Source: Sphingobacteriales bacterium
GTDB lineage: Bacteria > Bacteroidota > Bacteroidia > Chitinophagales > Chitinophagaceae
Reading direction: 5' to 3'
Assembly: GCA_004295245.1 (NCBI GenBank)
Contig: REAR01000089.1
Location: 1-36,145, forward strand
DNA length: 36,145 bases
Under the pieces are notes generated by a model. The model had not been told where the DNA came from and searched no databases. It saw only the letters and a list, made by a program, of their open reading frames with translations. Below, piece by piece: positions 2,920-4,555 of the stretch. Numbering within the stretch: the first letter of the stretch is position 1; each line of letters opens with the position of its first letter. Both the position numbers and the translations under genes were made by a program.

Positions 2920-3750
2920 CTATTTTAATTTGCCACTTTTGTAAATGCCATATACTTTTATTTCAACCGTTAATGGGGTAATTAACTGCATTACCTGTTG
3001 AAACTGGTTGATTGTTTCAAATTCCATATCAACATGAAAACTGTATTTAAAATCGCTGCCCGGAATAGGAAAGCTTTGCAATTTGCTGAGGTTAATACCA
3101 CCATCTGCAATTTTAGTAAGTACTCTGGCCAAACTTCCTTTTGAATGATCGGTTACAAAATTTACAGAAGCTTTATCCGCCGCTTTTACAGGCACTACAG
3201 TTTCTTCTCTTTCCAATATCAGAAAGCGGGTGTAATTATTCTTCATGGTTTGTATAGAAGGGGCAATTACATCTAACTTATAAAGTTCTGCTGCCAGTTT
3301 GCTGGCAATGGCTGCAATGTGTTTGCTTTTGTGCTGGTGAATATGGCGTGCACTTAACGCAGTATCTTCTGTTTCTACCAGCTTCCATTTATACTTATCC
3401 AAAAAATCATAGCATTGCTGTAAAGCCATGGTGTGAGAATGTACCTCCCGGATGTCTTGCAGTTGCACCCCAGGATTTACCAGCAAGTTTTGTTTTATCT
3501 GCAAGTACACTTCGCCAGCTATTTTTAGGTTACTTTTTTTAAGCAGGTTATAGTTGGGTAAAATGCTGCCGGCAATAGAATTTTCTATGGCCATTACTGC
3601 ACCATTGCTTTCTTTTTTATTGGAGCCAATTTTTATTACGTCTCTGAAAGTAGCACAAGGTATTACTTCCACCTCTTTACCATGAAACTGCCGGGCAGCC
3701 TCCTGGTGAAAACTTCCTTCATAGCCTTGTATGGTTACTTTCTTTGCCAT
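2920..3750 (-). CDS. pheA: prephenate dehydratase
   Basis: Converts prephenate to phenylpyruvate for phenylalanine synthesis. The 276-residue protein has the catalytic-domain N-terminus (IQGYEGSFHQEAA), the TRF catalytic motif in NNYTRFLIL, and a C-terminal ACT domain from about residue 195. There is no fused chorismate mutase. In the ACT domain the GALA motif reads GSLARVL, but the ESRP motif that binds phenylalanine in many family members is replaced by QSFP, so allosteric feedback may differ from the classical enzyme. First gene of the aromatic operon; its ATG follows directly after an intrinsic terminator and a Phe/Tyr-rich leader ORF, which points to control by attenuation. Confidence 0.94.
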   Translation of the reverse strand: MAKKVTIQGYEGSFHQEAARQFHGKEVEVIPCATFRDVIKIGSNKKESNGAVMAIENSIAGSILPNYNLLKKSNLKIAGEVYLQIKQNLLVNPGVQLQDIREVHSHTMALQQCYDFLDKYKWKLVETEDTALSARHIHQHKSKHIAAIASKLAAELYKLDVIAPSIQTMKNNYTRFLILEREETVVPVKAADKASVNFVTDHSKGSLARVLTKIADGGINLSKLQSFPIPGSDFKYSFHVDMEFETINQFQQVMQLITPLTVEIKVYGIYKSGKLK

Positions 3751-3755
3751 ATTTT

Positions 3756-3790
3756 AAAAAGCAGAATCCCGACCTTTTGGCCGGGATTCT
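3756..3790 (-). terminator. intrinsic terminator of the pheA attenuator
   Basis: On the minus strand AGAATCCCGGCC (3790-3779), loop AAAA, GGTCGGGATTCT (3774-3763) makes a 12-bp stem with one G-U pair, followed by GC and five T. The pheA ATG is five bases further on. The 5' arm segment TCCCGGC (3786-3780) is the exact complement of GCCGGGA (3839-3833) inside the leader ORF, giving a competing antiterminator pairing. Confidence 0.9.
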
Positions 3791-3811
3791 TATGTTGATT
3801 GTTTTATAAAA

Positions 3812-3898
3812 TTATTTGTTCAACAAAAGCAGTCCCGGCTTCATTGTAAAAAAGAAGTAATAAAAATAAAAAAAACCGTATGCTCTTGCTTTGGTCAT
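3812..3898 (-). CDS. Phe/Tyr-rich leader peptide of the aromatic operon (pheL-like)
   Basis: A 28-codon ORF, ATG at 3898 and TAA at 3814-3812. Codons 7-17 read YGFFYFYYFFF: nine consecutive aromatic codons (9-17) and ten aromatics in eleven, using both Phe and Tyr codons. This matches the logic of leader peptides such as enterobacterial PheL, where a ribosome short of charged tRNA stalls on the control codons. Codons 20-22 contain GCCGGGA, which can pair with the 5' arm of the downstream terminator. A weaker pairing between AAAGCA (3892-3887) and TGCTTT (3831-3826) could act as the protecting stem. The operon downstream makes precisely Phe and Tyr. No Shine-Dalgarno is visible, and the promoter -7 box ends four bases before the ATG, so the leader mRNA may be leaderless. 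Function is inferred from layout; translation is untested. Confidence 0.85.
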   Translation of the reverse strand: MTKARAYGFFYFYYFFFTMKPGLLLLNK

Positions 3899-3902
3899 GT
3901 TT

Positions 3903-3933
3903 CAAAAATAAAGACTAATTAGTTCTGTACAAA
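3903..3933 (-). promoter_or_regulatory. Bacteroidota-type promoter of the leader/pheA operon
   Basis: TTTG (3933-3930), 19 nt spacer, TATTTTTG (3910-3903) on the minus strand: an exact match to the -33 TTTG and -7 TAnnTTTG consensus known from Bacteroides, with good spacing. The start site would fall at or within a few bases of the leader ATG. Confidence 0.75.
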
Positions 3934-3991
3934 AAATATTTTTATGCTAATGTGCTGAAATGCGCTACCAGCAAGGTTTAGCTAACGTTTG

Positions 3992-4555
3992 TTACAGCAG
4001 ACGTTTGCTTATTTGCTCATCTAGTTTTTTAAAGAGGTGAAAGGGTCTGTAAATACGCCAATCGTCTGTTTGCATTAACTCAAGGTAGCGGTTCAGGCGG
4101 GCTTTTATAAAATCGTGCTGGGTTTGTTGTGGCATATTTAAAACCACCACCCATCCGTTTTCATCACTTACTTCTTCATACCATTCTTCGTAATAATCTT
4201 TTCCATCACTATGAAAATTTAAAACGTTTTCTGCTATGAGTATGAATTTATTGATGCCCAGAGCGTAAAATTTATCGGTTACTTCCCGCTTCAGTTCCAT
4301 AATATCGTTTTCTATGGCATCATTCCACTCGCCAATCATTTCAATTATCATGTAGTGCTCTTCGTAATCGGCCAGTAACACTTTTATGTAAAGGGTGCGG
4401 CTGCCAAAATCATCCCATTGCGGATGTATGTAATAATTGTAAATGGTTTGAGAAAATTCAAACTCGCTGTACTCACGTCCGTAAAAAGGAGAACGCTCAT
4501 CTTCTTCGCTAATATAAATATGCCGCCAATTGTAAAATGGTTCTATATCCTGCAT
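3992..4555 (-). CDS. conserved hypothetical protein
   Basis: A 187-residue acidic, aromatic-rich protein that I do not recognise as a named family. It has no signal peptide, no membrane segment and no cysteine cluster, so it is probably cytoplasmic. The sequence is rich in Trp, Tyr, Glu and Asp (for example YNWRHIY near the start and YYEEWYEE in the middle) and ends with a basic, helical tail (LDEQISKRLL). The pattern of a conserved start and regular alternation suggests a real, folded protein. It lies alone between the T9SS-protein gene upstream and the aromatic operon's promoter downstream, so context gives no function. Confidence 0.75.
   Translation of the reverse strand: MQDIEPFYNWRHIYISEEDERSPFYGREYSEFEFSQTIYNYYIHPQWDDFGSRTLYIKVLLADYEEHYMIIEMIGEWNDAIENDIMELKREVTDKFYALGINKFILIAENVLNFHSDGKDYYEEWYEEVSDENGWVVVLNMPQQTQHDFIKARLNRYLELMQTDDWRIYRPFHLFKKLDEQISKRLL

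Follow-up and report, generated by a model that had tools for sequence, protein, structure and literature searches.

The region directly upstream of pheA in the window (the whole 36,145-nucleotide stretch of Chitinophagaceae DNA analyzed here) very probably encodes a transcription attenuator of the ribosome-mediated kind that acts on the pheA-aminotransferase-tyrA-DAHP synthase operon and would read charged tRNA-Phe and tRNA-Tyr jointly. This reading, proposed earlier from the sequence alone, is supported by a conserved open reading frame (ORF) rich in aromatic codons, by mutually exclusive helices that covary among homologous loci, and by a position ahead of genes of the aromatic pathway. We infer ribosome stalling, transcription termination, and a response to starvation from these features.

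The four genes lie on the minus strand, 3′ of the leader, in the order pheA, aminotransferase, tyrA, and DAHP synthase, and the operon described in the sequence-only reading was borne out by Pfam and NCBIfam matches. pheA encodes a prephenate dehydratase (2920 to 3750; PF00800 PDT; E = 8.6 × 10−58) and is followed by a class I/II aminotransferase gene (1738 to 2898; PF00155; E = 6.3 × 10−56), by tyrA, encoding prephenate dehydrogenase (876 to 1724; PF02153 and PF20463; NCBIfam NF006307 above cut-off), and by a DAHP synthase gene that is truncated by the window edge (1 to 771; PF00793; E = 2 × 10−38). The top NCBIfam models for the aminotransferase were those of LL-diaminopimelate aminotransferase, below cut-off, despite the aromatic operon setting. 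The attenuator region sits on the minus strand between pheA (3750 to 2920) and an upstream gene (3992 to 4555, minus strand), whose 187-residue product had no Pfam or NCBIfam match at an E value of 0.001. A HisG family match, sought in connection with a possible sister attenuator, was absent from the window's own genome (96% complete), which suggests an incomplete histidine pathway or an assembly gap in that genome.

The leader peptide ORF comprises 28 codons (3812 to 3898, minus strand; MTKARAYGFFYFYYFFFTMKPGLLLLNK). Its regulatory codons 9 to 17 (3848 to 3874, minus strand) are nine consecutive aromatic codons, Phe Phe Tyr Phe Tyr Tyr Phe Phe Phe, exactly as had been read before. Among 1,000 dinucleotide shuffles of the 310 nt ending 10 nt inside pheA, none reached nine aromatic codons out of nine. 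Each of 78 leaders (the window and 77 loci) contained at least two Phe and at least two Tyr codons, with mean contents of 5.8 Phe and 3.6 Tyr. The length of the ORF was similar across loci, and the order and number of Phe and Tyr codons differed. The motif GCTTTTGTTRA was kept, yet one group of leaders translates it as MLLL and a second as FC-stop; its retention across differing frames points to selection on the RNA. The residues PG recur after the aromatic run, and the CCGGGA pairing segment dictates them. No NCBIfam model matched the leader ORF.

Downstream of the aromatic run, the leader can form two helices that share one strand. The intrinsic terminator, formed by segments 3 and 4 (3763 to 3790, minus strand), has 12 pairs (one G-U) and an AAAA loop, is followed by GCTTTTTAAA, and ends 12 nt ahead of the pheA ATG; the 12-bp stem with a T run before pheA was thus found as the sequence-only reading had stated. 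Segment 2, the 5′ side of the antiterminator, lies within the leader ORF (3820 to 3839, minus strand) and forms 7 + 6 pairs with segment 3 (3780 to 3798, minus strand), which is common to antiterminator and terminator. Its first half, GCCGGGA (3839 to 3833; the last base of codon 20 and codons 21 and 22), is the exact complement of TCCCGGC in segment 3 (3786 to 3780), as already noticed from the sequence. A second half, TGTTGA (3825 to 3820) opposite TCAACA (3798 to 3793), had been overlooked.

Both helices were supported by covariation in alignment A1, which contains 61 elements obtained from 77 by reduction at 90% identity. L030, whose start codon is not ATG, and L042 and L065, which are cut by contig ends, were left out before these counts; L074 was left out of the alignment, its hairpin being visible. 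For the terminator, 96.9% of cells were paired, with double changes in 5 of 10 pairs; for the antiterminator, 87.9% were paired, with double changes in 10 of 13 pairs (0 of 500 shuffles for each; 61 elements). On each of five measures, terminator and antiterminator alike scored above every one of the 500 shuffles, and they also beat slid versions of themselves in cells paired and in covariation score; in further pair types, the antiterminator was not above its slid control (19 versus 20 at a slide of −3). All column pairs were scanned for runs of 3 or more (80% paired; no fewer than 40 sequences). Three helices had at least 15 double-change cells, namely, the terminator stem, GCCGGGA/TCCCGGC, and TGTTG/CAACA, ahead of a runner-up with 11. 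The stem core was followed by a T-rich tail (at least 7 T in 12 nt) in 58 of 61 elements. RNAalifold run on the alignment predicted the terminator as the sole structure. On the pheA tree, pair changes numbered 4 + 3 for columns 87-122 and 8 + 6 for columns 69-144, numbers so small that the sign test is powerless.

The cores of segments 2, 3, and 4 also varied in concert among 15 hand-picked elements. The sets observed included GAGGAT/ATCCTC/GAGGAT, GATCGGGT/ACCCGATC/GATCGGGT, AGCGGGAT/ATCCCGCT/GGCGGGAT, GGCAGGA/TCCTGCC/GGYGGGA (GGTGGGA), and CAGGGAC/GTCCCTG/CAGGGGC (segments 2/3/4, respectively). In this check L174 was matched on the opposite, palindromic strand, and L182 kept only 4 consecutive 3:4 pairs of the chosen motif. 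The placement of the antiterminator segment inside the leader ORF, one of the unusual points of the sequence-only reading, is borne out by its covariation with the terminator arm. That reading had also called for a comparison of homologous upstream regions. An aromatic run was conserved in 78 of 80 loci and compensatory changes were found in both helices (0 of 500 shuffles), so that neither a missing aromatic ORF nor a stem devoid of covariation was what the comparison returned.

The predicted fold of the full-length window leader contains a further hairpin that was absent from the sequence-only reading. Here, the start of the leader pairs with segment 2 and the Phe/Tyr run lies in the loop; the 5′ side of this 1:2 hairpin, segment 1, occupies 3890 to 3881 and 3878 to 3872 in the minimum free energy fold (3872 to 3890, minus strand). 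For the window leader RNA, the folding energy was −39.3 kcal/mol (z = −5.0), and none of 200 shuffles folded as well. At least half of the 1:2 pairs were present in the predicted full-leader fold of 32 of 61 elements. In A1, 1:2 pairing reached 72.1%, compared to 45 to 48% in slid versions, and column covariation was not above that of shuffles. The duplex of segments 1 and 2 was more stable between own partners (−14.7 kcal/mol) than between swapped partners (−12.5 kcal/mol; 0 of 5,000 permutations), a difference from which relatedness is not removed; with shuffled letters, the value was −8.1, versus −14.7 for own partners. We consider the 1:2 hairpin less certain than the antiterminator and terminator helices.

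The predicted folds agree in part with the attenuation scheme. In the full leader, the terminator was predicted in 57 of 61 elements. When the transcript was folded without a ribosome and cut off 5′ of segment 4, the antiterminator core was predicted in 51 of 61 elements and the 1:2 hairpin in 2 of 61; because the antiterminator is favored over the 1:2 hairpin in this partial transcript, basal termination without translation would need a kinetic explanation. With the 5′ part masked and segment 4 absent, the antiterminator core was predicted in 53 of 61 elements. With the 5′ part masked and the rest complete, the terminator was still predicted in 49 of 61, so that read-through would need co-transcriptional folding.

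The spacing of codons and segments was measured across the elements. The median distance to the segment 2 core was 35 nt from the first Phe codon and 41 nt from the first Tyr codon (counted from codon 6 on), and the last aromatic codon lay a median of 11 nt 5′ of this core. The stop codon lay a median of 22 nt past the segment 2 core (range, −9 to 25) and 9 nt past its basal half. Given generally known ribosome footprint sizes, a ribosome that has reached the stop codon would in most cases sit over the distal half of segment 2. In loci L150, L152, and L153 of family f41, the leader stop codon comes right after segment 2 or overlaps it (AGCCGGGACTGA), which would place segment 2 under a ribosome that terminates there; the stop codon of L162 lies just 5′ of segment 2.

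Under the proposed mechanism, RNA polymerase would transcribe the leader while a ribosome starts at the AUG near the 5′ end and translates the Phe/Tyr run. When Phe and Tyr are plentiful, the ribosome would reach the stop codon, and segment 2 would be masked or would pair again with segment 1. With segment 2 unavailable, segments 3 and 4 would form the terminator, and transcription would end before pheA. When Phe or Tyr is short, the ribosome would stall early in the run, leaving segment 2 free some 35 to 40 nt ahead. With segment 4 still to be transcribed, free segment 2 would pair with segment 3, no terminator would form, and the operon would be transcribed.

A promoter-like sequence of the Bacteroidota type precedes the leader (3903 to 3933, minus strand). 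It consists of TTTG (3933 to 3930), a 19-nt spacer, and TATTTTTG (3910 to 3903), which on rereading matched the earlier description, and a gap of 4 nt separates TATTTTTG from the leader ATG. Of 76 testable elements, 62 had an exact TAnnTTTG box no more than 30 nt 5′ of the leader ATG, and its spacing to the ATG was 4 to 10 nt in 59 of these 62; the background frequency was 222 of 14,467 38-nt windows (1.5%), and 4 of 228 windows farther upstream contained the box. Transcription is expected to start a few nucleotides past a TAnnTTTG box, so that with the box this close to the ATG the 5′ untranslated region of the leader mRNA would be only a few nucleotides long. The transcript is thus predicted to start on the leader ATG or a few bases away from it, making the leader gene leaderless or nearly so, a point that the sequence-only reading had not mentioned. 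In class loci outside the family, the box was found in 12 of 24, at 16 to 33 nt from the leader ATG; at this distance, the near-leaderless start seems limited to the family. According to the portion of PMC9723704 drawn on here, leaderless mRNAs make up 5.5% in Flavobacterium psychrophilum. The trpL leader mRNA of Sinorhizobium meliloti, a tryptophan attenuator of the Alphaproteobacteria, is described as beginning at its ATG (PMC7298713, in excerpt), whereas the ATG 5′ end is only predicted here.

We then consider how widely the element is distributed. pheA homologues were taken from named contigs as the best 80 of 115 stretches encoding a relative, and these 80 loci belong mostly to Chitinophagaceae or to metagenome-assembled genomes (MAGs) labeled Bacteroidetes or Bacteroidota. 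An aromatic leader ORF preceded pheA in 78 of them (77 with ATG; L030 with another start), and the contigs of the two remaining loci have only 48 and 160 nt of sequence ahead of the pheA match. Wherever the sequence extended 3 kb or more past the pheA start (71 loci), pheA, aminotransferase, and tyrA followed in order on one strand; L158 was left out of the operon-order and codon-content analyses. In one MAG (JAPLEO), pheA is found on two contigs, L060 and L076, behind similar aromatic leaders, which may reflect a mixture of strains.

A covariance model of the element (R1) gave one match below an E value of 1 × 10−3 in the window's genome. Across the family, R1 matched 248 of 394 genomes, pheA was found in 275, and both were found in 246 (246/275). 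In a 147-genome sample, the element lay directly before pheA in 92 of 93 genomes having both, at a distance of −5 to 176 nt. pheA was downstream in all of the best 58 loci at E ≤ 1 × 10−3 (family and class together); three elements apart from pheA lie outside this set. Every R1 match at E ≤ 1 × 10−3 whose downstream genes were read was followed by genes of the aromatic pathway. There were 29 family genomes with pheA and without an R1 match, and the 10 from the first sample were examined: in 7, an ORF with at least six aromatic codons in nine lay within 500 nt, and 3 had no aromatic leader. In the class sample, R1 matched 34 of 395 genomes, including further families of the class, and an aromatic leader was present in 24 of the 24 class loci read outside the family (from 28 such matches). 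With the query used, pheA was found in 39 of 149 class genomes; an ATG-started aromatic leader was present in 12 of 29 class pheA loci, with 0.1 expected, and absent in 17 (2 of the 29 come from the family, and the window's own locus was left out). In the phylum sample, R1 matched 25 of 296 genomes, three of them outside the class.

Next to the conserved RNA, the codons of the leader appear to vary with the genes that follow. Leaders linked to pheA had a mean Tyr fraction of 0.39 (standard deviation, 0.09; n = 95 distinct leaders). Three family elements apart from pheA had Tyr fractions of 1.0, 0.71, and 0.62, values reached by 0, 1, and 1 of the 95, respectively. In G213 (99% complete; L185/L204), pheA was not detected, and tyrA immediately follows the element; ORFs farther downstream were read as a helicase gene and DAHP synthase. 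The leader of this element, MTQYSKYYYWYYLNRITG, has 0 Phe, 6 Tyr, and 1 Trp. One further genome of this genus was searched and had no R1 match. In G219 (90% complete), pheA was likewise not detected, and the element precedes aminotransferase-tyrA with 2 Phe and 5 Tyr codons. G194 (83% complete; L184/L187) has kept the element before aminotransferase-tyrA (3 Phe, 5 Tyr), and its pheA lies on a separate contig without an aromatic leader. Among the pheA-linked leaders, L072 (2 Phe, 7 Tyr) reaches the Tyr richness of two of these three elements. Three further genomes with lower pheA scores (G586, G609, and G627), suspected of carrying the element apart from pheA, proved to be ordinary pheA-linked cases.

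Outside the class, in genus g360 (L198/G923, L196/G1030, and L203/G1048), DAHP synthase is the gene immediately downstream of the element, and in two of the three loci the element follows tyrA. All three g360 leaders, MINLKKATTTSFYFYWFYFTGRGWLL for example, combine Phe and Tyr with two Trp, compared to Trp counts of 0, 0, 1, 0, and 0 among five pheA-linked leaders from the family to which g360 belongs. In the window's family set, Trp was present in 9 of 78 pheA-linked leaders, with two in L005. Codon content thus appears to track operon content; the cases and lineages are few, and each differs in the direction that codon-based sensing predicts, which backs the earlier claim that one switch would answer to two amino acids. 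The broader proposal has, in our judgment, an even chance of being correct: a retunable, Bacteroidota-wide attenuator in which one RNA chassis is kept and the leader codons are rewritten on operon rearrangement, with Phe and Tyr before pheA-aminotransferase-tyrA, Tyr alone where tyrA leads without pheA, and Phe, Tyr, and Trp before DAHP synthase, the leader gene being leaderless or nearly so in Chitinophagaceae. If so, one switch would answer to two and, in some genomes, apparently to one or three aromatic amino acids, and its natural variants could tie codon identity to regulatory specificity.

The Rfam search called for by the sequence-only reading was carried out with Rfam 15, and no family reached threshold in the window and ten homologous loci (eleven sequences), T-box and riboswitch families included. 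In the window, RF01859 (Phe_leader) scored below gathering (21.0 versus 55 bits; E = 0.26), a lax search gave sub-threshold matches throughout, and Bacteroid-trp (RF01692), which we take to be a tryptophan leader, was not among the matches up to an E value of 5 in positions 3700 to 3990. The enterobacterial leaders pheL (RF01859), trpL, hisL, and leuL likewise combine a short ORF carrying regulatory codons, alternative 2:3 and 3:4 hairpins, and a terminator before the operon. However, pheL is known as a reader of Phe only, whereas the window leader mixes Phe and Tyr codons, holds segment 2 inside the ORF, has its ORF near the predicted 5′ end, and would control a four-gene operon for both Phe and Tyr. 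One attenuator reading several amino acids is known from thrL (Thr/Ile) and ilvL (Ile/Val/Leu) of enterobacteria; here, the amino acids and the phylum are different, and the mix apparently shifts with the operon. The type of mechanism is classical, and what is new is a phylum-wide family, a two-amino-acid sensor with apparent retuning, and a leader gene predicted to be nearly leaderless.

The literature bearing on these points is cited from excerpts. The general scheme of ribosome-mediated attenuation followed here is that of PMC2659441, whose excerpt also lists a Shewanella aroF "attenuator sensing tyr-tRNA". In PMC9723704, the one paper among those drawn on here to name a 5′ element at a Bacteroidota pheA, a conserved, structured 5′ element without an Rfam hit is reported upstream of pheA in F. 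psychrophilum and Flavobacteriaceae, and, separately, strong clues are reported for leader-peptide attenuation upstream of amino acid biosynthesis operons. This element shares phylum and position with ours; the excerpt gives no leader sequence, alternative pairing, or statement on Phe and Tyr, and the two are likened by description only. As to whether the leader had already been described in the phylum, which the sequence-only reading could not say, there is thus partial prior notice, and the open-licence literature, as far as the excerpts extend, yielded no account of the Phe/Tyr leader, of its alternative pairing, or of its retuning. PMC2864571 lists, among cis-regulatory candidates, Bacteroid-trp (RF01692, Bacteroidetes) and an actinobacterial "pheA" motif; the latter bears the same gene name, belongs to a different phylum, and is tabulated without an Rfam number. 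Small ORFs in long 5′ untranslated regions of Bacteroides thetaiotaomicron are described as reminiscent of leader-peptide leaders (PMC7366714), and older comparative work on attenuation is cited in PMC1262725 and PMC4833913. Within the literature found, amino acid operon control is little documented for this phylum, for which the element offers a concrete, comparatively supported attenuator; the covariance model is usable to annotate such leader genes.

Other explanations of the conserved leader have to be weighed against attenuation. The aromatic peptide itself might stall the ribosome, possibly sensing a free metabolite, and TnaC-like systems provide a precedent for such nascent-peptide arrest. 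The stretch is indeed hydrophobic and rich in aromatic residues, and the PG residues after it recur; however, the order and number of Phe and Tyr vary, PG is imposed by the CCGGGA pairing segment, and the frame differs over the next conserved stretch of RNA. Nor does arrest by the peptide predict that codon content changes with operon content, few as those cases are, and we consider this explanation unlikely. Slightly less likely still is purely translational control, in which the hairpin would hide the pheA start and the leader would unmask it, with no termination of transcription. Such a role would suit the 41 of 77 elements, the window's included, whose hairpin ends no more than 20 nt from the start of the pheA match, but the distance is 21 to 60 nt in 4 of 77 and more than 60 nt in 32 of 77, up to 193 nt, and the T-rich tails behind the stem in 58 of 61 elements also argue against it.

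Attenuation by translation of the Phe/Tyr codons also accounts for the data better than the idea of a working, trans-acting small protein encoded beside an unrelated terminator, which we regard as very improbable: the ORF is conserved at a similar length, but its C terminus differs in length and reading frame where the nucleotide sequence is kept, covariation links segment 2 to the terminator arm, and an NCBIfam match is absent. The lowest probability of all, close to negligible, goes to a ligand-binding riboswitch or T-box accompanied by a chance aromatic ORF. A long, covarying, structured leader is what such an RNA would look like; however, neither the window nor the ten homologous loci had an Rfam match at the gathering threshold, the column-pair scan returned no further covarying helix of comparable strength, and the aromatic run is not expected by chance (0 of 1,000 shuffles). 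A chance ORF next to an unrelated terminator is likewise rejected, given these shuffles and the covariation between segment 2 and the terminator arm.
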